Shown: positions 1 to 57,145 of the stretch, one piece after another
Position numbering within the stretch: position 1 is the stretch's first letter
Layout: every line of letters begins with the position of its first letter
Source: Candidatus Eisenbacteria bacterium
Lineage (GTDB): Bacteria > Eisenbacteria > RBG-16-71-46
NCBI GenBank assembly: GCA_020847735.1
Contig: JADLBL010000020.1
Coordinates: 133,632 to 197,631 of the forward strand
Reading direction: 5' to 3'
DNA length: 64,000 nucleotides
Translations under genes and position numbers: made by a program
The notes under the pieces: generated by a model
What the model saw: only the letters and a program-made list of their open reading frames with translations
Databases searched by the model: none
What the model was told of the DNA's origin: nothing

Positions 1-1481
1 GCGGCGTCCGCGTCGCGTGACGGCATGCGCCGGATCGCCGAGTCCGAGCGGCCGCTCTCGGGTCCGAAGTGCCCCCGGACCTCGAGCGGCATGGACGGAG
101 TCGCGCGCTTGGCGCCGAAGCCGGCGCGCTCGAGCGCCTGGTAGACCCGCGTGCGGTCCTCCTCGGGCAGCTCGGCCTTGCTGAACTGGGTGAGCGCGTT
201 GAGCGCCTCGCGCCGGATCTCGGCGCTCTCGGAATCGGCGAGACGGCAGACGGACTCGACGACGCGCGGATCGGGCATCTGCGCCAGCGCGCGCAGGCAC
301 AGGGGCACCGCGCGCGGGTCGCGCGTCAGCATGCGCAGCAGCGGTTCCACCGCGCGCGGGTCGCGGGTCTTCGCGAGCGCGTCAATGGCGCGCTCGCGCA
401 CCCACCAGTCGTGGTCCTCGAGCGCGCCGATCAGGGGCTCGACGGCCCGCTTGTCCGGGACCGTGTTCAGGATCTCGACGGCGTAACGGCGGATGAAATC
501 GTCGGGGTCCTGGACCAGCTCGATCACGGCGTCGATCACCTTGGGGCCTCCGAGCGTGCCGAGCGCGTCGGCCGCGCGGACGCGCACCCACCAGTCGGCG
601 TCGCGCAGGGCGGAGACGAGGTCCTTGATCGCCTCGGTCGTCACGACCTGGTTGAGAACCTCGACGGCGGCGCGGCGGACGTACTCGGAGTCGTCGCGCA
701 GGTACTCGAGCAGATGCGGAACGGCCGCGACGTCGCCAATGGCGATCAGCGTCTCGATCGCCGCCGCCTGCACCTTGATGTCGATGTCGCGCAGTCGGCC
801 GCAGAGCGCCGGCAGCGCCTCGCTGGCCTTGAGCACGCCCAGCGTGCGGACCGCCTCGAGGCGGACCGCGGCGCTCTCGTCCTTGAGCAGTTCGGCGACC
901 CCCTGGATCGAGTCCTGCCCGGGAAGCTTCGCCAGCAGTTTGACCGCGTGCAGTCGCAGCCACCACTCGGCGTGGCGCGCCAGGCCGACGACGTCGCTCG
1001 AGATGCTGGAGTCGGCGCGCCGCTCGAGCAGCCGGAACACGCTCCCGCGGGCGTCCTTGCTCAGGTCCGGCAACACGCGGACGAGCGTCACCGGCTGAAG
1101 GCGCTGCATCTGCGCGGCGAGGATGGCCTCGAGGCGCGCCTTGGAAATCGCCGGTTCCGAGAACAGGGGCAGCAGGAGCGCCGGATCGAACAGGGCCGAA
1201 CGCGAGAGCGCGGTGGAAGCGGCCTCGACGACCGCCGGAACGGGGGACTGCAGCGCCTCGACGAAGACCGCCAGCGTCTCGTTCGTGGCCAGCTTCTCGA
1301 GCACTTCGATCGAGGCTTCGGAAGCCTTGCCGCGGGCGATGGCGTCGAGCAGCCCGCGAACGGCGGAGGGACCGAGGGCGACGAGCTTCTCCTGCGCCTG
1401 GGCGACGTCGGTCGCTTCCTGCAGGGGATCCTGCAGGCGCTTCGCGAGCTTCCCAGCCTGGAATCGCCGGATCAGGTCCAT
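1..1481 (-). CDS. HEAT-repeat protein (3' end beyond window)
   Basis: The frame reads from an ATG at 1481 down to base 1 without a stop, so at least 493 residues are present and the C-terminus is missing. It is a chain of about 30-residue alpha-helical repeats of HEAT/PBS-lyase type, with recurring signatures such as DxDWWVRxRAxDALG, DPRAVEPLL and DDSEYVRRAAVEVL. There is no signal peptide or membrane segment, so it is probably a cytoplasmic scaffold that binds other proteins. It lies 37 bp downstream of the FHA gene on the same strand, so the two are probably co-transcribed and may work together in phospho-dependent assembly. The upstream Shine-Dalgarno match is weak (GAAGCGAGAT), which leaves the exact start a little uncertain. 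The specific partner or pathway cannot be told from sequence. Confidence 0.85.
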   Translation of the reverse strand, partial: MDLIRRFQAGKLAKRLQDPLQEATDVAQAQEKLVALGPSAVRGLLDAIARGKASEASIEVLEKLATNETLAVFVEALQSPVPAVVEAASTALSRSALFDPALLLPLFSEPAISKARLEAILAAQMQRLQPVTLVRVLPDLSKDARGSVFRLLERRADSSISSDVVGLARHAEWWLRLHAVKLLAKLPGQDSIQGVAELLKDESAAVRLEAVRTLGVLKASEALPALCGRLRDIDIKVQAAAIETLIAIGDVAAVPHLLEYLRDDSEYVRRAAVEVLNQVVTTEAIKDLVSALRDADWWVRVRAADALGTLGGPKVIDAVIELVQDPDDFIRRYAVEILNTVPDKRAVEPLIGALEDHDWWVRERAIDALAKTRDPRAVEPLLRMLTRDPRAVPLCLRALAQMPDPRVVESVCRLADSESAEIRREALNALTQFSKAELPEEDRTRVYQALERAGFGAKRATPSMPLEVRGHFGPESGRSDSAIRRMPSRDADA

Positions 1482-1518
1482 GATCTCGCTTCGTCGAAGA
1501 AGGAACGGTGCAGGACTT

Positions 1519-2097
1519 CTAGCGGGAAAGCAGCAGCCAGACCGCCCCGGCGCCGAGCGCCGCGCCGAGCAGGAACGAAACGACGATCGCGGCGACCGGC
1601 GAACCGTGCGACGCCGAGGGCGACGTCATTCCCGCGGCGGCCGACACGCCGGCCGGCGGGGCGACGGGATGGACCTCGCGCTCCTTGGACGTCTCGAGCA
1701 GGTTTCCGAGCTCGGCGCGCGAGAGCACCATCGTGTGCTGCTCGGTGCCGACCGACGACTTGCGGGATTCCTGGCCGCCGGCCCTGCGATCGGTGTCGTA
1801 ACCGACCCACAGCGTGTACTTGCCGAAGCGCACGACGTCGTTGTTCTTGACGACCGCGGTGTGCACCATCTGGTCGTTCACGAACGTGCCGTTGGCGCTG
1901 CCGAGGTCCACGAGCTGGTACTCGCCGCCCGGCGTCTTCTCGAGCCGGAAATGGTCGCGCGAGACGCCCGGGTTGTCGACGAAGACGTCGGAGCCGGGAT
2001 CCCGGCCGATGCTGATGACGGGCTTGTCGAACGTGTAGTTGCGCACCGGCCGCCCCATCAGCGACAGGCGAAGCTTCAGCAGATTCCCTTCGGACAT
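1519..2097 (-). CDS. FHA-domain protein with C-terminal membrane anchor
   Basis: This 192-residue protein starts with a forkhead-associated (FHA) domain at about residues 8-100. The phosphothreonine-binding residues are visible: GR at 31-32, SRDH at 46-49 and NGT at 69-71. A flexible linker follows, then one hydrophobic helix at about 168-191 that ends in SR, so the FHA head should face the cytoplasm. FHA domains bind phosphothreonine peptides, usually made by Ser/Thr kinases; a membrane kinase gene lies in this window at 50.3 kb, but no direct link is shown. It is the first gene of an operon with the HEAT-repeat protein. A sigma-28-like promoter motif lies about 95 bp upstream (2195-2223). 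The start has GGAGGAGA just upstream. Confidence 0.9.
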   Translation of the reverse strand: MSEGNLLKLRLSLMGRPVRNYTFDKPVISIGRDPGSDVFVDNPGVSRDHFRLEKTPGGEYQLVDLGSANGTFVNDQMVHTAVVKNNDVVRFGKYTLWVGYDTDRRAGGQESRKSSVGTEQHTMVLSRAELGNLLETSKEREVHPVAPPAGVSAAAGMTSPSASHGSPVAAIVVSFLLGAALGAGAVWLLLSR

Positions 2098-2419
2098 GGC
2101 GTCTCCTCCTGGCAGCGACCTCCGGCGGGTGCGCGGCGGACGCCGGCCGACGGCGCTTCCAGTCCCGCGCCGGGCGAACGTGTGACCCTGTGTCTATCGG
2201 CCGAAGCACAGCGCCCCCTTGAGGTCGTTTTGCACGGGGTGAACCCACCCAGCCCCGGGCGCGCCCGGGCCTGCGCCTGCGGACGCCGGGCGTTCGGGGG
2301 CGCGTTCCCGGGCGCTGGTCACCCGGCAGGGCCGGGCGGCCGCGTGCCGTGCTACGGTGGGCCACGACCGTCGGCCCGCCTGCGCGGGCCCCGCATCCCT
2401 CGCCGGAGTCGCCCCCGCC
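2098..2419. other. Divergent intergenic region, FHA operon / PIG-L operon
   Basis: This 322-bp non-coding stretch separates divergent genes. It holds the sigma-28-like element for the minus-strand FHA gene (2195-2223). On the plus strand it holds a -10-like TACGGT in TACGGTGGGCCAC at 2353-2365, 55 bp before the PIG-L start. Several GC-rich short inverted repeats occur around 2260-2340, none convincing as a terminator. Confidence 0.5.
2195..2223 (-). promoter_or_regulatory. Sigma-28-like promoter of the FHA-HEAT operon
   Basis: Read on the minus strand this is CTCAAG, 11 bp, then CTTCGGCCGATA. The same two blocks with the same spacing occur before the YfiR-kinase operon at 11438-11466. GCCGATA and TCAAG resemble the -10 and -35 elements recognised by FliA-type sigma-28 factors, though the spacer (16 bp from TCAAG to GCCGATA) is a little longer than the usual 14-15. 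The identity of the sigma factor is inference. Confidence 0.5.
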
Positions 2420-4909
2420 ATGGCCCGACGCTTCCACCGTCGTCTCGCGCTCGCCGCCGTTCTTCCGCTGCTCGTCCTCGGCCTCTCCGTTCCGTCTCGA
2501 ACCGCGGATGCCGGCCCCCGGCCGGCCGACGTGCTCGACGCGGGGGAGACGCGCCTCGCGCTCGAGCGGCTGCGCGTCACCGGTTCCGTCCTGTACGTGG
2601 CGGCCCACCCGGACGACGAGAACACGGCCCTGCTCGCGTGGCTGGCCCGCGGCCTCAAGGTGCGGACCGCGTACCTGTCCATGACGCGCGGCGACGGCGG
2701 CCAGAACCTGATCGGGCCGGAACTGGGCAGCGAGCTCGGCGTGATCCGCACCCAGGAGCTGCTGGCGGCGCGTACCGTGGACGGGGCCGAGCAACTGTTC
2801 ACGCGCGCGGTGGATTTCGGCTACTCGAAGAGCCCCGCGGAAACCTTCGAGTTCTGGGGACACGATTCGATCCTCGCCGACGTCGTGCGCGCGATCCGCC
2901 ACTGGCAGCCCGACGTCGTGATCACCCGCTTCCCGACCGACGGCAGTGGCGGCCACGGGCATCACACGGCCTCGGCGATTCTCGCCGAGGAGGCTTTCGC
3001 TGCGGCCGCGGACCCGGCCCGCTTTCCGCAGTGCGGCGCGCCGTGGCGCGTGCGGCGCCTGTACTGGAACGCGTTCGTCCGCGGAAGCACGCGGGTGGAC
3101 TCCTCGTGGCTGCGGGTGGACGCGGGCGGCTTCGAGCCCCTGCTCGGGCGCTCCTGGGGCGAGATCGCCGCGGTGAGCCGCAGCAACCACAAGAGCCAGG
3201 GCTTCGGCGTCGCCGAGCGCCACGGGGCGCTGCCGAACTACCTGGCGCCGCGACTCGGAGACGCGGCCGTGGCGGATCCGCTCGCCGGCGTGGACCTGAC
3301 GTGGCGGGCCTTCGGGCCGGCGGGCGTGCGCGCCGACTCCCTCCTCGCGCTCGCCGCGGGCGAGTTCGACCCGTCGAGGCCCGAGGCGCTGCTGCCGAGG
3401 CTGTTCGAGGTCCGCCGGGCGCTCGCCTCCGCGCCGCCCGTGCGCCCCGCCCTGCTGGCGGCCAGGCGCGCCGAGCTGGAGGCGCTCATCCGCTCCTGCT
3501 CGGGGCTGTGGGCCGAGGCCATCGCGCTCGAGCCGGCCGTCACGCCCGGCGACTCGGTGCGCGTCGTGGTCTCGATCGTGAACCGCCGCGGCCTCGACCT
3601 GTCGGTGCGCCGGCTCACGTGCGGGGGCGCGAGCGGACGCGCGGCCGGCGTCGGCACCGACTACGCCGAGACGCTGACCGTGGCCGTGCCCGCCTCAGCG
3701 CTTCCGACTCAACCCTACTGGCTGCGCCGCGAACCCGTGCGCGGCCGCTTCGTGGTGGACGATCCCGCCGACATCGGCCGGCCCGAGGACGCACCGGCGC
3801 TGGCGGCATCGCTCGAACTGGCCACCTCCGCCGGCGAGTTCCGTTTCGATCTCCCGGTCGCGTATCGCTGGGCGGACCCGGTTCAGGGCGAACGCTGGCG
3901 GGCGCTGGAAATCGCGCCGCCGGCGACCCTGAATCTGGACCACGCGGTCTACCTGTTCCCCGATCGCGCGCCGAGACCGATCGGCGTGCGGGTCCGCGCT
4001 CAGCGCGACGGCGTCGCCGGGCGCGTCTCGCTCACGCTGCCGGCGGGCTGGACCTGCTCGCCGCCGACGGCCGACGTGGCCCTGCGCGGGAGCGGCGACG
4101 AGACGCACGTGCGGTTCACCGTCACCCCGGGCGCGGGGCCCGAAGCCGCCGATCTGTCGGCGGTCCTCACCGTCGGCGGGCGGCGATGGTCCCACCAGGA
4201 GGTGCGGATCGACCATCCGCACATCCCGCCGACCTCGCTCTACCCGCCCGCGACCGCGCGGCTGGTGCGCGCCGACATCCGTCACGCGGGCGCGCGCGTG
4301 GGCTACGTCGCCGGATCGGGCGACGCGATTCCCGACGCGCTGAGCCAGCTCGGCTACGAGGTCGTGCCGCTCAGCGACGACGACCTCGAGGGTGGAGACC
4401 TGTCGCGCTTCGACGCGATCGTGACCGGCGTGCGCGCGTACAACACCCGGCCGCGGCTGGGCGCGGCGCAGCCGCGGTTGCTCGACTGGGTCGCCGCCGG
4501 CGGCACGCTGGTCGTGCAATACAACACCACGGCCGACGGCCTGCCGCCCGCGCTCGGGCCTTATCCGTTCACGATTTCGCGCGACCGCGTGACCGACGAA
4601 ACGGCCGGGGTCCGGGTGCTCGCCGCTTCGCATCCGCTGCTCACGCGGCCGAACGCGATCGGCCCCGCCGACTTCGCCGGCTGGGTGCAGGAACGCGGGC
4701 TCTATTTCGCGAACCCGGCCGACCCGCGCTACGAGCGGGTGCTCTCCTGCCACGACCCCGGCGAACCGGACCGCGAAGGCGGCCTGCTCTACGCACGGCA
4801 CGGGCGGGGCGTGTTCGTGTACTGCGCCTACGCGATGTTCCGGCAGTTGCCGGCCGGCGTGCCCGGAGCCTGGCGGTTGTTCGCGAACCTGGTGAGCGCC
4901 CGGCCGTGA
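2420..4909 (+). CDS. Secreted PIG-L (LmbE-like) family deacetylase
   Basis: This 829-residue protein has an N-terminal signal peptide (about residues 1-31, ending before AGPRP). A PIG-L/LmbE fold starts at residue 57, with the metal motif AHPDDE at 62-67 and the second metal site HGHH at 179-182. Family members are zinc-dependent N-deacetylases acting on N-acetylglucosamine-type substrates. The middle part looks like beta-sandwich domains. The C-terminal third (about 610-829) looks like a flavodoxin/class-I glutaminase-like fold with no catalytic triad I can identify. I chose the ATG at 2420 because it gives a clean signal peptide; an in-frame ATG at 2357 would put 21 extra residues in front of it. 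Its stop overlaps the next GTG by GTGA, which marks it as first gene of a three-gene operon with a 44-residue membrane peptide and a sodium/solute symporter. Confidence 0.88.
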   Translation: MARRFHRRLALAAVLPLLVLGLSVPSRTADAGPRPADVLDAGETRLALERLRVTGSVLYVAAHPDDENTALLAWLARGLKVRTAYLSMTRGDGGQNLIGPELGSELGVIRTQELLAARTVDGAEQLFTRAVDFGYSKSPAETFEFWGHDSILADVVRAIRHWQPDVVITRFPTDGSGGHGHHTASAILAEEAFAAAADPARFPQCGAPWRVRRLYWNAFVRGSTRVDSSWLRVDAGGFEPLLGRSWGEIAAVSRSNHKSQGFGVAERHGALPNYLAPRLGDAAVADPLAGVDLTWRAFGPAGVRADSLLALAAGEFDPSRPEALLPRLFEVRRALASAPPVRPALLAARRAELEALIRSCSGLWAEAIALEPAVTPGDSVRVVVSIVNRRGLDLSVRRLTCGGASGRAAGVGTDYAETLTVAVPASALPTQPYWLRREPVRGRFVVDDPADIGRPEDAPALAASLELATSAGEFRFDLPVAYRWADPVQGERWRALEIAPPATLNLDHAVYLFPDRAPRPIGVRVRAQRDGVAGRVSLTLPAGWTCSPPTADVALRGSGDETHVRFTVTPGAGPEAADLSAVLTVGGRRWSHQEVRIDHPHIPPTSLYPPATARLVRADIRHAGARVGYVAGSGDAIPDALSQLGYEVVPLSDDDLEGGDLSRFDAIVTGVRAYNTRPRLGAAQPRLLDWVAAGGTLVVQYNTTADGLPPALGPYPFTISRDRVTDETAGVRVLAASHPLLTRPNAIGPADFAGWVQERGLYFANPADPRYERVLSCHDPGEPDREGGLLYARHGRGVFVYCAYAMFRQLPAGVPGAWRLFANLVSARP

Positions 4910-5040
4910 GCGAGGACGTCCGGGCGGACCGCGAGCGTCCTCCGCTCGGCGGTCGCTGGGGCACGCTGTACGCGATCGTGATCGCGGCGCTCGTGATCGA
5001 GATCGCTCTGCTCGCCTGGCTGACCCTGGCGTTCCGATGA
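4906..5040 (+). CDS. 44-residue single-span membrane peptide
   Basis: The start is a GTG whose last bases form the TGA of the PIG-L gene (GTGA), and its own stop forms ATGA with the symporter start. The peptide has a short polar head (about 1-19), then one strongly hydrophobic segment (about residues 20-42, starting GTLYAIVIAALV). The overlaps on both sides and the membrane helix make it a credible real gene rather than a chance frame. By position it may be a small accessory subunit of the symporter, as DUF485-type proteins are for acetate permeases. I see no sequence similarity to DUF485, so that role is inference. Confidence 0.7.
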   Translation: MSEDVRADRERPPLGGRWGTLYAIVIAALVIEIALLAWLTLAFR

Positions 5041-49727: not shown

Positions 49728-50333
49728 ATGGCCGCACCCACGGGTGACGACGAGCGTCCCCGAGCCACACCGCCGCTGGAGACCACGGCGTGGCTGCTGG
49801 ACCGGGCGCGGGGTGGCGACGACCGCGCGCGCGAGCGTCTCGTGGCGCGCGTGCTGCCTCCCCTGCAGGCCTGGGCGCACCGGCGGCTGCCGCCGCGGGC
49901 GAGGGACCTGGCCGACACCGACGATCTCGTGCAGGTGGCGATCCTCCGCGCGCTGCGTCACCTCGACACGTTCGAGAGCCGCGGCGAGGGGGCGCTGCTC
50001 GCCTACCTGCGGCAGGTGCTGCTCAACCTCGTGCGCGACGAGGTCCGCCGCGCCGGGACCCGCCGTCCCGGCGAGCCCGTCTCCGACTCGCTTCCCGATC
50101 GCGCGCCCTCGCAGCTGGAGGAACTGGTCGGCCGCGAGACGCTCGCACGCTACGAGGCGGGACTGGCGAAGCTGTCCGCGGAGCAGCGCGAGGCCGTGAT
50201 TCTCAAGGTCGAAATGGGCTACTCGAATCCCGAGATCGCCGAGGCGCTCGGGCGCCCATCGGCGGACGCGGCGCGGGTGTTCGTCGCGCGCGCGCTCGCG
50301 CGGCTGGCCGAGGTCATGCATGAACCCTCCTGA
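49728..50333 (+). CDS. ECF-type RNA polymerase sigma factor
   Basis: This 201-residue sigma-70 family protein has region 2 at about 20-95 (WAHRRLPPRARDLADTDDLVQVAILRAL, where DTDDLVQ is the typical core-binding helix) and region 4 at about 145-195 (LSAEQREAVILKVEMGYSNPEIAEALG, helix-turn-helix). There is no anti-sigma gene next to it; instead its last 14 bases overlap a Ser/Thr kinase gene, a pairing known for several ECF groups controlled by kinase phosphorylation. The kinase is therefore a likely regulator. Confidence 0.9.
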   Translation: MAAPTGDDERPRATPPLETTAWLLDRARGGDDRARERLVARVLPPLQAWAHRRLPPRARDLADTDDLVQVAILRALRHLDTFESRGEGALLAYLRQVLLNLVRDEVRRAGTRRPGEPVSDSLPDRAPSQLEELVGRETLARYEAGLAKLSAEQREAVILKVEMGYSNPEIAEALGRPSADAARVFVARALARLAEVMHEPS

Positions 50334-53028
50334 ACCACCGCCCGAGCCCGATCCGAGGCTGGTCGAGCTGGCGCTGGGCCTTGCGGACGACGTTCCCGTG
50401 GACTGGGAAGGCGCCCGCAACACGGCCGCGGACCTGTCGGAGACGCTCGAGCAACTTCGCGAACTCGAAACGCTCGCGCAGGCGCACCGGCGCGACCGCA
50501 GGCTGCGCGATTCGCGCCCGGACGCGCCCGTCTTTCGCTGGGGCGCGCTCGAGGCGGTCGAGAAGCTCGGCGAGGGAGGGTTCGCCGAGGTCTGGCGCGC
50601 CTACGAGCCCGCGCTCGCGCGCGAGGTCGCGCTCAAGCTGCGGCGCGCGGACGCGCCGGGCGGTCCGCGCTGGCTCAAGGAGGCTCAGCGGCTGGCGAAG
50701 GTGCGGCACCCGAACGTCGTTCAGGTTTACGGCGCGGACGTGTTCGACGGGCGTCCCGGGCTGTGGACGGAACTGGTGCAGGGCCGCACGCTCGAGCAAC
50801 GCCTGCTGGCCGAGGGTCCCTGCGGCGCCGCCGAGACGGCCGCCATCGGCATCCAGGTGTGCGCCGCGCTCGCCGCGGTGCACGCCGCCGGGCTGGTGCA
50901 CGGCGACGTCAAGACCCGGAACGTGATGCGCGAAGGCGTCCCCGCCGGGCACGGCCGGCTGGCCGGATCCGGCAGGGTCGTTCTCATGGATTTCGGCGCC
51001 GCTTCGGACGCGGACGAACGGGGCGCCGGGTCCGCCGGCACGCCGATGTTCGCGGCTCCCGAGCGGCTCGCGGGCGGCGAATCGAGCGTCGCGGGCGATC
51101 TGTACTCGCTCGGCGTCGTGCTCTACCGCCTGCTCACGGGCCGCTTTCCGGTGGAGGCGACGAGTACGGAGGCGCTGCGCGCGAAGCTGGCGCGCGGCGA
51201 GCTGACGCCGCTGCGAAGCCTTCGGCCGGACCTGCCTTCGGGGCTGCTGCAGGTCATCGAGCGCGCGCTCGAGCGCGACGCCGGCCGGCGGTTCCCCGGC
51301 GCGGCAGAAATGGAGCGCGCGTTGATCTCGGTGCTGGCGCCGGCCGCAGCGGGACCGGGCGCGGACGGCACCGCACGGTGGCGGTTCGCGACAGGGCTCG
51401 TGGCGGGCGTGCTGATCGCGCTGGTCGCGGCGGCGGCCTTCCTGCAGGTCCGCGATCGGCTCGCGCCCCGATTCCATTTCGCTTCGGCCGCCCGTCCGCT
51501 GCCGCACGTTCTCACGCCGCTCGTGCGCGAGACCGAGTCGGGCCAATGGATCGGAATGTCGTCGGTTCGTATCGGAGACCTGGACGGCGACGGCCACGCG
51601 GACCTCGCCACCGGCGCCCCGTTCGAGGGCGGAGCCGGACGGGTCCACGTGCTCTTCGGCGACGGCCATGGCGGATTCCCACGCTCGCTGGCACTGGCAG
51701 GCCGGCAGACCTCGGCGATGTTCGGCGGCGCGCTCGCCGCCGCGGACCTGAATGGCGATGGCCGGCCCGACCTCGCCGTGGGCGCGTCGAACTGGTCCGG
51801 CGCGTCTCCGGGAGGCGGACGCGTGCTCATTTACTATGGCGGCGCGCCGTTCGACTCGGCCCGCCACCGCACGCTTCAGGTGGCGCACGCCGGCGCGCAG
51901 TTCGGCTTCTCGCTCTCCTGCGGCGACTTCAACGGCGACGGCGTCGCCGACCTGGCCGTGGGCGCGTGCGGCGACGCGAACGCGGGCCGCACGCCCGCCG
52001 GACGCGTGTACGTCTACTTCGGCGGCCCGCGGATGCGCGATTCGCCGGACGTGACGCTCGGCAGCGACGCGCCCGACGCGCAGTTCGGAAATGCCGTGGA
52101 CCTGGGAGGGGACCTGAACGGCGACGGCATCGCCGACCTCGCCGTCAGCGCGCCGTGGGAGAGCAGCGACGGGTTGCGCGCCGGACGCGGTTACGTCTTT
52201 TTCGGAGGCCGCGTTCCCGCCACCACGCCGGCGCTCGTGCTGCGCGGCCTAGGACCCTGGCAGCAGCTCGGCGCCCCGCACTACGTGGGAGACCTCGACG
52301 GCGACGGCTTCGACGACCTGCTGGTCGCCAACGAGCGCGGCGACGGCTTCGAGCACGCCTCGGGCACCGCGTTGCTGTTTCGCGGTGCGAGCGCACCGTC
52401 CGACGTGCCGGCGCGCACCTATCGGGGGGAACGCGAAGGCGATGGTTTCGGTCGCTGGGCCACGAACGTCGGCGACGTGAACGGCGATGGTCGCGCGGAC
52501 CTGGCGATCGCGGCGTGGTGGAGCGACGTCGGCGGGCCCACCTCCGGCGCGATCTACCTGTACGCGGGCGGGCCGCAACTCGACACCGCGCCGCTCGCGC
52601 GGCTGCCCGGTCCGGGTGTCGGAGCGCGATTCGGCACGGCGATCGCCGGCGCCGGGGACCTCGATGACGACGGCTTCCCCGACGTGCTCGTGGGCGAGCC
52701 GTCGAACTCGAGCCAGTGGAGGGGTGGCACCTTCCTGGCGAGTTTTCATCGCTTCGTGCTCTCGAGACCGCGGCCCGACGAACGGTGGCGCGGCGGAGAG
52801 CGGGCGGTCGTGGCCTGGCGAGGGGAGACTCCCGCCGCGCTCGAGTACTCCGCGGACGGGCGGGCATGGACGACGCTGCTCGGACATACCGGTGGCCGTG
52901 GCTCGAACTCGGTCTCGATCCGCGTTCCGCAGGTGGCGGACACGTTGCTCGACCTGCGCCTGCGCCCGGCGGATTCGAAGCTCCGGGGCGCGATCGAAGT
53001 CGCGGTCCCTGTGGCCCGGGGGCGCTGA
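50320..53028 (+). CDS. Membrane Ser/Thr kinase fused to an FG-GAP propeller
   Basis: This 902-residue protein has a Pkn2/PknB-type kinase domain at about 73-340: glycine loop LGEGGFAEVW (83-92), ATP lysine K106, catalytic HGDVKTRN (194-201, HGD where most have HRD), DFG (224-226) and the APE-type AAPERL. One membrane helix (about 357-376) follows. Then six or seven FG-GAP/integrin-alpha-like repeats, about 407-830, each with a Ca-binding loop such as DLDGDGHADLATG, DLNGDGRPDLAVG, DFNGDGVADLAVG and DVNGDGRADLAIA. The C-terminal 80 residues are beta-rich. The outer propeller is a probable sensor of ligand or cation. Overlaps the ECF sigma gene by 14 bp. Confidence 0.92.
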   Translation: MNPPEPPPEPDPRLVELALGLADDVPVDWEGARNTAADLSETLEQLRELETLAQAHRRDRRLRDSRPDAPVFRWGALEAVEKLGEGGFAEVWRAYEPALAREVALKLRRADAPGGPRWLKEAQRLAKVRHPNVVQVYGADVFDGRPGLWTELVQGRTLEQRLLAEGPCGAAETAAIGIQVCAALAAVHAAGLVHGDVKTRNVMREGVPAGHGRLAGSGRVVLMDFGAASDADERGAGSAGTPMFAAPERLAGGESSVAGDLYSLGVVLYRLLTGRFPVEATSTEALRAKLARGELTPLRSLRPDLPSGLLQVIERALERDAGRRFPGAAEMERALISVLAPAAAGPGADGTARWRFATGLVAGVLIALVAAAAFLQVRDRLAPRFHFASAARPLPHVLTPLVRETESGQWIGMSSVRIGDLDGDGHADLATGAPFEGGAGRVHVLFGDGHGGFPRSLALAGRQTSAMFGGALAAADLNGDGRPDLAVGASNWSGASPGGGRVLIYYGGAPFDSARHRTLQVAHAGAQFGFSLSCGDFNGDGVADLAVGACGDANAGRTPAGRVYVYFGGPRMRDSPDVTLGSDAPDAQFGNAVDLGGDLNGDGIADLAVSAPWESSDGLRAGRGYVFFGGRVPATTPALVLRGLGPWQQLGAPHYVGDLDGDGFDDLLVANERGDGFEHASGTALLFRGASAPSDVPARTYRGEREGDGFGRWATNVGDVNGDGRADLAIAAWWSDVGGPTSGAIYLYAGGPQLDTAPLARLPGPGVGARFGTAIAGAGDLDDDGFPDVLVGEPSNSSQWRGGTFLASFHRFVLSRPRPDERWRGGERAVVAWRGETPAALEYSADGRAWTTLLGHTGGRGSNSVSIRVPQVADTLLDLRLRPADSKLRGAIEVAVPVARGR

Positions 53029-54107: not shown

Positions 54108-56225
54108 TCAGTCGGCGCGCAGCGTTCGCGTGTCGGTGTCGAAGCCGACGAGCCGTGCGCGACCCGCCTCGACGAGGAGCGAGTCGGCGAACGACAGGAC
54201 GAGCCCGACGCCCCTGGGGTCGTGAACGGGCGTGAACTCGACGCGGACCGCGTGCCTGCCGGGCGCGGCCGGCAGGTCCTGCTCGACGAACAGCGGGCGG
54301 TCGCCGCGCGCTCCCAGCGGCGCGACCTCGCGCTCGGTGACGAGCCTGCCGTCCAGCCAGGCGCGCAGGCGATAGCGCAGGTAGACGGTGCGGCAGTCCT
54401 GCGTCCGCCGCATGTGCGCGGGCATGCGCGCGATCTCGTCGGCCGAGAGTTCCCGGCAGTCGAGCCACGACTGGCCCGGCAGCCGCCACGCCAGGCGCAC
54501 GGCTCCCTGCGGCGGAGTCGCGCCCGCCGACCACTGGGACAGCGTCGCGGTGGCCGCCAGCGCCGCGAGCCCCAGCAGCGTCGCGAGGATCGCGCCGGCG
54601 GCGCCGCGAATGCCCGGCGCGAACGGGCGGCGCGGGACCGCTCGCGCGCCGGCGGCGCGTGCGAACAGCTCGAACTCGCCCGCCAGCCAGTCGAGATCCG
54701 CCGAGGCCCCGGCCGTGAAGCGCACGCGCGTGGGGTCGAGCGGCGTCTTGAGCTCGGGATGCCGGCCGAGCAGCAGGCGTTCGAGCGCCAGTCCCGTGCC
54801 CTCGCGCGAGCGGCAGCGATGCGGCGGGCAGCCGAGCACGAACACGCCGCGGTGGCGATCGCTGAGCTGCGAGACCGCGAGCGAGTGCAACGAACCCGCG
54901 CAGTCCACCTCGACGCAGGCGACCCGGTGCCCCGCGGCGCGCGCGCGCCCGGCGAGCGCTTCGCCGACGCCGTCGTGGCTGCAATGCACGAGCGCGAAGC
55001 CGCCGGGATCGGCGGCGGCGTTGACCGCCTTCACGGCCCGGACCTGCGCGTGCCCGTCGCGGCCGGGCGGACCGATGGCGAGCTGGTCGCACGAGCCCGA
55101 GCACAGCCCGCAGGCGACGCAGCGCGCGGAGTTCACGATGGCGATGGTCTCCGAGCCGCGTCCGGTCGGGTTCGGTCCCATGGCGATGGCTTCGAAGGGG
55201 CAGTCGATCGCGCACTGGCCGCAGCCGGTGCACGCCGCCGGGTTGTGCAGCGCCGTCTCGCGGCGGCGATCGCGCCTCGGCCGCCACCACAGCGGCACCG
55301 ACAGCGGCAGCAGGGCGAGCGCGAACGAGGCGGCCCAGGCGGCGGGCGGCGCGAGCCGCGCGGCGATCGGGACCCAGGCGGTGTAGAAGACGTCGTACGT
55401 GGCCCGGTCGCCGAGCCGGAGTCCGTCGGCCGCCGGACCGAGCGCGACCGGAACGGCGAAGGAAAGCACGGTGAAGGCGAGGGCGACCGGCACCCAGACG
55501 CGCGTTTCGGGCAGCCAGCGTCCGCGCGCGAGGCGCAGCGTGTGGATCCAGACCAGCAGCGTCATGCCGAGCGGCAGCGACATGTGGACGAACAGATTGA
55601 GGAAGAAGAACGACGAGGGCGCGGCGGCGCCGCCGCCGAAGATGCGGCCGATGGGCGTCGCGAGCAGGCCCAGCGAGTCGAACAACCGCGCGCCGGCGGC
55701 GCCGAGGATCAGGCCGTGCATGTCCCAGACGAGCACGTACCCGGTCCAGCCGACCACGAGCGTCGCCCCGGTCAGCAGCAGGCCCGTGACCCACGCCAGC
55801 ACGCGCGGGCCCCACGTGCGGCCCTCCGCGAACATGCGCAGCGCGTGCAGCGCGATGCACGCGACCGCGGCGTCGGAGGCGTAGCGGTGCAGGGCGCGCA
55901 GCCAGCGGCCCGCCCAGACCTGGGCCTGGATGCGCTGCATGGATTCGTAGGGCGCGCCGATCCGGTAGACGAGCAGCAGGTACACCCCGGTGGCGATCAC
56001 GACCAGCATCAGCGCGATGACCAGCGGCCCGCTCTGGTGCAGCGGATTCCAGCGCGAGCCGTAGGCGCGGTCGAACAGCGAGTCGAGCGCGGCGAGCGCG
56101 GCCTGGAGGGGCTTCGCGGCCGCGGGCGCCGTCTCTCGCTCGAGCGCGTCGGGGTGGCCGAGCGGAAGCGCCCGCGACGGCGGCGTCTCGACGGACGGGG
56201 CCTCGTCCGGGAGAACCGCTTTCAC
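54108..56225 (-). CDS. Cytochrome b / 2x[4Fe-4S] ferredoxin / MvhD-like fusion
   Basis: This 705-residue membrane protein starts at a GTG overlapping the SCO stop (GTGA). Residues 50-320 are a cytochrome b6-like domain with two heme-ligand pairs, H113/H127 and H214/H228, each 14 apart. Residues about 330-385 hold two ferredoxin clusters (C332, C335, C338, C342 and C369, C372, C375, C379). Residues about 408-485 resemble the MvhD/hydrogenase iron-sulfur delta family (VHCSHDGVGEAL, VEVDCAGSLH, LGCPPHRC), though one CxxC is reduced. A further membrane helix (about 538-560) and a beta-rich domain follow. It could move electrons between quinone or b hemes and a soluble iron-sulfur carrier. Last gene of the operon. 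Confidence 0.85.
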   Translation of the reverse strand: MKAVLPDEAPSVETPPSRALPLGHPDALERETAPAAAKPLQAALAALDSLFDRAYGSRWNPLHQSGPLVIALMLVVIATGVYLLLVYRIGAPYESMQRIQAQVWAGRWLRALHRYASDAAVACIALHALRMFAEGRTWGPRVLAWVTGLLLTGATLVVGWTGYVLVWDMHGLILGAAGARLFDSLGLLATPIGRIFGGGAAAPSSFFFLNLFVHMSLPLGMTLLVWIHTLRLARGRWLPETRVWVPVALAFTVLSFAVPVALGPAADGLRLGDRATYDVFYTAWVPIAARLAPPAAWAASFALALLPLSVPLWWRPRRDRRRETALHNPAACTGCGQCAIDCPFEAIAMGPNPTGRGSETIAIVNSARCVACGLCSGSCDQLAIGPPGRDGHAQVRAVKAVNAAADPGGFALVHCSHDGVGEALAGRARAAGHRVACVEVDCAGSLHSLAVSQLSDRHRGVFVLGCPPHRCRSREGTGLALERLLLGRHPELKTPLDPTRVRFTAGASADLDWLAGEFELFARAAGARAVPRRPFAPGIRGAAGAILATLLGLAALAATATLSQWSAGATPPQGAVRLAWRLPGQSWLDCRELSADEIARMPAHMRRTQDCRTVYLRYRLRAWLDGRLVTEREVAPLGARGDRPLFVEQDLPAAPGRHAVRVEFTPVHDPRGVGLVLSFADSLLVEAGRARLVGFDTDTRTLRAD

Positions 56226-57145
56226 GACCGGCCCCGCACGCGGCGCACGCCCTCGACGATCCACTCGGGAGGGGGGTTGTTGAACCGGTAGGCGATCCGC
56301 CCTTCGGCGTCGAGGATCATGACGATCGGCGCATGCGAGACGTCGCCGCTCTTCAGATCGCGCTCATGCGCGACCCGGAGCGTATCGAGCAGCCGGCAGA
56401 CCGCGTCGGGATCGCCGGAGAGCAGCCGGCCGTCCTCGGGGAGCGACCAGCGGGACGCGAGCGCGGGCAGCGCGCCCGGCGTGTCACGCCACGGATCGAG
56501 CGTGACCAGCGCGATGCGCGCGCCGCCGGGGCCCAGTTCGCGGGCGGCCCGGCCGAGGTTCGCGACGAGCACCGGGCAGACGGTCTGGCAGTTCGCGAAC
56601 GCGAAGCTCAGCACGGTCGGCCGGCCGCGAAGGTCCGCCGCGCCGAAGGCCCCGCCATGCTGGTCCACGAGCGTGAACGCCGGCACGGGGTCGCTCGAGC
56701 GCGGCCAGTTGTCCGGCAGCGGCCCGCGCTCCTCGGGCGCGAACGACACGGTCGCCACCCGGCGCTGCTCGCGGATGCGACCGGCCGCCCAGCGCACCTC
56801 GACCATGAAGACGAGGACGCACGCCGCCGCGATCCCGTGGGCGAGCGGCGAACGGGCGAGCCGCGGCAGGGCGGTCCTGAGCTCGCCGTGGAAGGCCGCG
56901 CCGATCGCCGCCAGCATGAGCAGCGGGGCGGGAACGAGCATCATCCAGCCCTGCACGGCCGGAGGGCCGCCCGGCAGCGAGCCGAAGCACGCCGACTGCG
57001 CGGCCGAAAGCCACGAGGTGTCGCCGGCCGGCACCGGCCAGAACGCGAAGCCCCACCACGAGACGACGGCGAGCGCCCACAGCAGCAGGAGCGCCGCGCC
57101 CACGCGCGGCGCTCCCCCGGGAGCCACACCCGGAACCACGGCCAT
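56222..57145 (-). CDS. SCO1/SenC-like copper protein with membrane head
   Basis: This 307-residue protein begins with three hydrophobic segments (about 14-37, 64-86 and 99-118), then a thioredoxin-fold SCO domain from about 150. The copper site is complete: CQTVCP (C186, C190) and H271 in DVSHAPIVMILD. SCO proteins deliver copper to the CuA site of subunit II, and that gene is two places upstream. Its ATG overlaps the stop of subunit I and its stop overlaps the next GTG, so translation is coupled. The long multi-span head is unusual; typical SCO proteins have one anchor. Confidence 0.9.
   Translation of the reverse strand: MAVVPGVAPGGAPRVGAALLLLWALAVVSWWGFAFWPVPAGDTSWLSAAQSACFGSLPGGPPAVQGWMMLVPAPLLMLAAIGAAFHGELRTALPRLARSPLAHGIAAACVLVFMVEVRWAAGRIREQRRVATVSFAPEERGPLPDNWPRSSDPVPAFTLVDQHGGAFGAADLRGRPTVLSFAFANCQTVCPVLVANLGRAARELGPGGARIALVTLDPWRDTPGALPALASRWSLPEDGRLLSGDPDAVCRLLDTLRVAHERDLKSGDVSHAPIVMILDAEGRIAYRFNNPPPEWIVEGVRRVRGRS

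Follow-up and report, generated by a model that had tools for sequence, protein, structure and literature searches.

An ECF sigma factor paired with an integrin-like receptor kinase that carries a sigma-linked N-terminal domain in Candidatus Eisenbacteria

How might a sigma factor be controlled when the gene for a receptor kinase begins inside its own? This question is raised by a locus in a 64,000-nucleotide stretch ("the window") of a 3.66 Mb Candidatus Eisenbacteria genome. There, an ECF sigma factor gene (49728-50333) and a kinase gene (50320-53028) overlap by 14 bp, exactly as the initial annotation had placed them. That annotation proposed a circuit running from an outside signal through a propeller and a kinase to the sigma factor, with no anti-sigma factor. 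The features of the locus are as follows.

49728..50333, plus strand: ECF sigma factor, 201 aa, regions 2 and 4 (open reading frame and profile matches)
49914..49925, plus strand: sigma2.2 motif D63-T64-D65-D66, with the T64 codon at 49917-49919
50320..53028, plus strand: receptor Ser/Thr kinase, 902 aa, with its first 14 bp inside the sigma factor gene
50347..50493, plus strand: N-terminal domain (aa 10-58) linked to the sigma factor, with the motif ADxxxVDW...LRxL and two predicted helices
50551..51294, plus strand: Hanks-type kinase domain, aa 78-325 (Pfam, alignment)
51388..51444, plus strand: single membrane helix, aa 357-375 (hydropathy)
51559..52755, plus strand: predicted outer part with seven FG-GAP repeats, each bearing a Ca-type loop, aa 414 to ~812
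52756..53025, plus strand: C-terminal segment of ~90 residues past the propeller, with no Pfam family, conserved in loci L052 and L067

The single membrane helix had also been anticipated; a second hydropathy peak, at aa 175-193, falls within the kinase domain. Elsewhere in the window, one minus-strand open reading frame (54108-56264) joins cytochrome b and 4Fe-4S ferredoxin domains to FlpD (hydrogenase delta subunit), an uncommon-looking electron-transfer fusion, and two others (493-1095 and 1123-5037) had no matches in Pfam or NCBIfam profile searches.

The sigma factor consists of regions 2 and 4 only. Its matches to Sigma70_r2 (3e-11), Sigma70_ECF (1.9e-10) and Sigma70_r4_2 (6e-8) all exceed their cut-offs, and its score against TIGR02937 (65.2 bits, cut-off 42.9) places it among the ECF sigma factors. 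The best NCBIfam match was to TIGR02984 (Planctomycetaceae-specific sigma subfamily 1), but its 84.4 bits fall well below the cut-off of 183.75 and membership was rejected.

The kinase (Pkinase, 4e-32) is of the Hanks Ser/Thr type and, as had been claimed, has a complete catalytic core: K106, E121, H194-G195-D196 and D224. E121, H194, D196 and D224 are invariant in 52/52 related kinases and K106 is present in 51/52. The HGD triplet, pointed out earlier as a departure from HRD, is indeed there, but it is ordinary among these kinases, since the middle residue is Gly in 23/52 (Arg in 25), and it does not mark an atypical enzyme.

Outside the membrane, the FG-GAP match (2e-55) falls into seven stretches, which settles the repeat count, given before as six or seven, at seven. 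All seven D-x-[DN]-x-D-G-x-x-D loops (aa 420, 476, 536, 598, 658, 719 and 780) are intact, bearing out the Ca-type loops. An integrin alpha chain likewise has seven FG-GAP repeats with Ca-type loops, and the PDB sequence match is to integrin alpha-6; unlike an integrin, the window protein has no integrin stalk domain in Pfam and is joined to a bacterial kinase. A single-sequence AlphaFold2 model of the whole kinase is poor (mean pLDDT 34.9, with only blocks within aa 11-50 at 67-80), so the propeller geometry is taken from the repeats alone. Sensor domains are modular in this group: among 52 sigma-adjacent kinases (51 from the phylum plus L031) we found DUF4384 in 25, TPR_12 in 11, AAA_22 in 8, FG-GAP in 5 and PD40 in 4. 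The five FG-GAP kinases are the window kinase, two from one genome of the same genus (L052 and L067) and two from the same family (L064 and L066), and none occurs among the 40 gammaproteobacterial and 40 acidobacterial loci considered below. They occupy at least two separate places on the kinase tree, many forks of which are weak, and the small count and scattered positions suggest an input that is rare and can be exchanged for others. Literature searches of open-licence papers returned no relevant paper linking an FG-GAP kinase with a sigma factor.

The pairing of the two genes is conserved. A search of 47 genomes of the phylum with the sigma factor gave 69 places at or above 73 bits, followed by a gap down to 61 bits, and 67 distinct loci were examined (the window and L051-L116). 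A homologous kinase lies directly downstream in 51/67 of them, usually with an overlap of 4-14 bp, which argues that the adjacency is not due to chance. The sigma factor was also found in at least 42/200 genomes of the gammaproteobacterial order Lysobacterales, to which locus L031 belongs (and in at least 3 of 398 sampled genomes of the phylum of L031), and in at least 34/297 genomes of the phylum of Acanthopleuribacter (L047), which we take to be Acidobacteriota. The kinase is downstream in 38/40 and 26/40 of the loci fetched from these two groups, respectively. Coupling of sigma factor and kinase, for which the initial annotation had named conserved pairing as a check, is well supported by that pairing in three phyla; the proposed absence of an anti-sigma factor fares less well, as described below. 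Three other neighbors in the window (a cytidylate-kinase-like protein, an antiporter and a superoxide dismutase) were not found in any of the 80 loci L051-L130, and the regions upstream of the 67 sigma factor genes yielded no common promoter above shuffled controls.

A conserved Thr or Ser in sigma region 2 had been suggested as something to look for, and one is present. The canonical sigma2.2 motif is DAED, whereas in the sigma factors of this group it is (D/E)-T-x-D, with T64 as the first residue of a predicted helix (64-77, DSSP). T64 is nearly invariant: it occurs in 67/67 distinct loci of the window phylum (alignment of 69 rows that includes L031 and also L032, a duplicate of L098), 41/41 gammaproteobacterial loci (L031 included) and 39/40 acidobacterial loci, or 147/148 sigma factors across three phyla. 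D66 is kept in 68/69 rows, 41/41 and 40/40, respectively. For comparison, we fetched 20 of the 23 background ECF sigma factors listed below the 73-to-61-bit gap, and the equivalent position is Ala in 17, Gly in 1, Ser in 1 and Thr in 1. The two with Ser or Thr (L131 and L149) are the only two of the 20 with a kinase directly downstream, a coincidence with 1 chance in 190 by our arithmetic if the traits were unrelated. Sequences from other groups (L033-L050, 18 in all) have Ala at this position in 16 cases, Gly in 1 and Ser in 1. Three further conserved residues, T20, S128 and S178, are each located where a helix begins or immediately ahead of it and are not favored as phosphosites. T64 starts a helix too, but the equivalent residue is Ala in most background ECF sigma factors; T64 is the prime candidate phosphosite in region 2.2. 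T64 is also carried by sigma factors at kinase-free loci and by those without a nearby kinase, and thus it may instead be a contact for the N-terminal domain or a structural residue.

A short conserved segment, L..a..ADG..VDW....L..LR.L..IA..hR, lies within the first ~60 residues of the kinase. In an alignment of 53 sequences of this N-domain one column, a Trp, is invariant. No Pfam family, anti-sigma families included, is common to the 53 members, and no PDB match was better than E 0.6, so the N-domain does not belong by sequence to a known anti-sigma family. A poor single-sequence AlphaFold2 model predicts helices at 12-21 and 29-65 (block pLDDT 53-80).

The N-domain is distributed with the sigma factor. 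Six-frame searches found it in 26/47 genomes of the phylum, and these coincide exactly with the 26 in which the sigma factor occurs, with none discordant; copy numbers within the 26 are correlated (Spearman 0.976). It was absent from the 21 sigma-free genomes, a result from whole-genome searches with a profile built mostly from sigma-linked examples, which favors such matches. The kinase query matched all 47 genomes. Of 66 N-domain places, 51 are directly downstream of the sigma factor and 15 are elsewhere. None was found in 42 background loci, and laxer settings produced one weak, distant match in 20 background loci (L143, 11.5 bits). Loci without a recognized N-domain directly downstream number 16/67 in the phylum, 20/40 in the gammaproteobacterial order, where the domain is more degenerate (20/40 recognized), and 14/40 in Acidobacteriota. 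Covariation between sigma factor and N-domain was examined in 97 pairs; 4/60 within-phylum shuffles reached the observed maximum, and the signal did not stand out from shuffled pairings.

The N-domain is also mobile with respect to the kinase. At L074 and L081 it is a stand-alone protein of 58 and 61 aa, respectively, overlapping the sigma factor stop, and a separate soluble kinase lies upstream of the sigma factor. On six other proteins (L053, L056, L060, L063, L065 and L069) it is joined to kinases that group with non-sigma kinases on a fully supported branch of the tree, which suggests replacement of the kinase domain with retention of the N-domain; L076 is suspected of the same swap, but its branch is very long. 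For L056, L060, L063, L065 and L069, no membrane helix is predicted by hydropathy outside the kinase domain. At L220, L225 and L228 the N-domain is followed by one membrane helix with no kinase in the fetched stretch; it is the single N-domain found in each of these genomes, and the three may share one origin event. In L220 the helix is followed by DUF4384, the family found on 25/52 of the kinases. An unusual receptor layout is found in the phylum of L047 at L234, L238 and L251, where three to six membrane helices separate the N-domain from the kinase domain; the L251 match, at 9.1 bits, is a weak one and was left out of the downstream counts.

These forms bear on the earlier claim that there is no anti-sigma factor, which is not supported: the kinase itself begins with the N-domain, which is linked to the sigma factor and in relatives forms a protein by itself or part of a kinase-free membrane protein. 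A gene directly behind that of the sigma factor, whose product has a cytoplasmic domain and then a membrane helix, is the layout of an anti-sigma factor, and it is seen both in the window receptor and in L220, L225 and L228. Judged from sequence, the kinase-free forms are built like membrane anti-sigma factors. Among known anti-sigma domains, those of class II (CnrY-like) are short cytoplasmic helix-linker-helix segments with one membrane helix, encoded by genes adjoining those of ECF sigma factors. The N-domain resembles them in its two predicted helices, in the membrane helix that comes next and in its position beside an ECF sigma factor, but differs in having no Pfam or PDB anti-sigma match and in being mostly fused to a kinase.

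Because the N-domain accompanies the sigma factor, at times without a kinase, the receptor probably both holds the sigma factor and modifies it. Our preferred reading, to which we give a probability of about 0.58, is that the two genes form a self-contained module in which one receptor chain is both anti-sigma-like and a kinase. The sequences themselves show that the genes are paired, that the N-domain is mobile and distributed with the sigma factor, that T64 is nearly invariant and that the sensor is modular; from this we infer binding and inhibition, phosphorylation and its site, the direction of the effect and a ligand, as follows. The two-helix N-domain would hold the sigma factor at the membrane, in an anti-sigma-like or docking role, probably masking it. 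The outer FG-GAP propeller would sense a ligand or surface, and the signal would reach the kinase through the one membrane helix. Either the bound sigma factor, with T64 in region 2.2 as the foremost candidate site, or the N-domain that holds it would then be phosphorylated by the kinase, and the sigma factor would leave and join RNA polymerase. Several observations weigh against this reading: T64 also occurs where no kinase is near; the acidic motif, with D63 and D66 in place, does not depend on phosphate for its charge as that of EcfP does; covariation did not rise above shuffles; a share of the loci in each of the three groups lack a recognized N-domain directly downstream; the N-domain resembles no known anti-sigma family in sequence; and the three kinase-free forms may go back to a single event.

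In a stricter version, the N-domain, with its two helices and VDW motif, would represent a new anti-sigma class fused to the N-terminus of membrane Ser/Thr kinases, such that one chain sequesters the sigma factor and phosphorylates it at region 2.2. We regard this as possible, at slightly less than even odds; the possible novelty would lie in the anti-sigma class, kinase-linked ECF sigma factors themselves being a known kind. If true, the kinase-free versions would directly connect, in evolution, the kinase control of sigma factors with classical anti-sigma control, and the input to the sequestering and phosphorylating receptor would here be an integrin-like propeller. Searches of the open-licence literature gave nothing that describes the N-domain, its kinase-free versions or a kinase bearing an anti-sigma-like domain.

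Among the alternatives, the one that survives best is a switch in which the N-domain is merely a docking handle and the sigma factor is free but weak until phosphorylation of T64 or of a linker Ser/Thr activates it. It has precedent in the ECF43 pairs EcfP/PknT and EcfK/PknS, as described in excerpts of PMC13147305 and PMC8999054, and it fits the way in which Ser or Thr at the T64 position tracks a neighboring kinase in background ECF sigma factors (2/2 versus 0/18). We nonetheless consider it rather unlikely: the window motif retains its acidic residues (D63 and D66), unlike ECF43, and the kinase-free proteins beside T64-bearing sigma factors would leave a docking handle with no kinase. The N-domain could alternatively be the sole effective regulator, a plain anti-sigma factor, with the kinase acting elsewhere or on the receptor itself. 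The kinase-free loci, and the DUF4384 that L220 shares with many of the kinases, suit such a reading, but near-complete conservation of the catalytic residues and the frequency of a kinase directly downstream in all three groups make it improbable. Finally, inheritance of an operon in which the kinase has no control over the sigma factor might account for the minority of orphans (11/67 sigma factor loci of the phylum with neither kinase nor N-domain directly downstream, and the N-domain kinases L122, L123 and L130 with no such sigma factor adjoining), but is highly improbable given an overlap conserved in three phyla while other neighbors vary and the exact co-occurrence of N-domain and sigma factor.

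The preferred reading, of a receptor that both holds and modifies its sigma factor, can be set against known systems, since ECF-kinase coupling as such is already known from ECF43 and other groups. According to excerpts of the published accounts, EcfP-PknT of Vibrio parahaemolyticus and EcfK-PknS of Xanthomonas citri both belong to ECF43 (PMC13147305; PMC8999054), and direct phosphorylation of the sigma factor has been demonstrated for both pairs (PMC13147305; PMC8999054; PMC8103513). As far as these excerpts describe it, ECF43 shares with the window family a neighboring Hanks-type receptor kinase, variable outer domains and a candidate Thr in the sigma2.2 motif. It differs in that its motif is uncharged and QTTA-like with the phospho-Thr third, whereas the (D/E)-T-x-D motif keeps its acidic residues and has Thr second. 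The window sigma factor, although it has the kinase neighbor, was for this reason not assigned to ECF43. PknS, which spans the membrane with one helix, bears at its N-terminus an 83-aa extension of three to four helices, without assigned function in the excerpt (PMC13147305); the N-domain has two helices, and the two are likened by description only. That PknS too has such an extension suggests that a sigma-binding role of N-terminal extensions could be general.

On other contigs of the window genome, four sigma factors of the Sigma70_ECF type (PF07638; L117-L120) have a kinase in the fetched stretch and perhaps represent a second kind of sigma-kinase pair. The L117 and L118 sigma factors carry QSTELVHE, a motif that recalls ECF43, and the kinases beside them have a different N-terminal extension, without the VDW motif.

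Groups ECF59, 61, 62, 217 and 283 resemble the window family, by their description in an excerpt of PMC8999054, in having the sigma factor beside a kinase and no separate anti-sigma gene; they often retain a DAED-like motif, with Ser or Thr in or around it. The same excerpt calls the control of kinase-linked ECF sigma factors outside ECF43 open, since the core-binding motif is retained. To this question the window family offers a concrete, testable answer, namely a sigma-partner domain fused to the kinase together with a near-universal Thr in the core-binding motif, and its stand-alone, kinase-free and kinase-swapped natural variants are ready-made controls.
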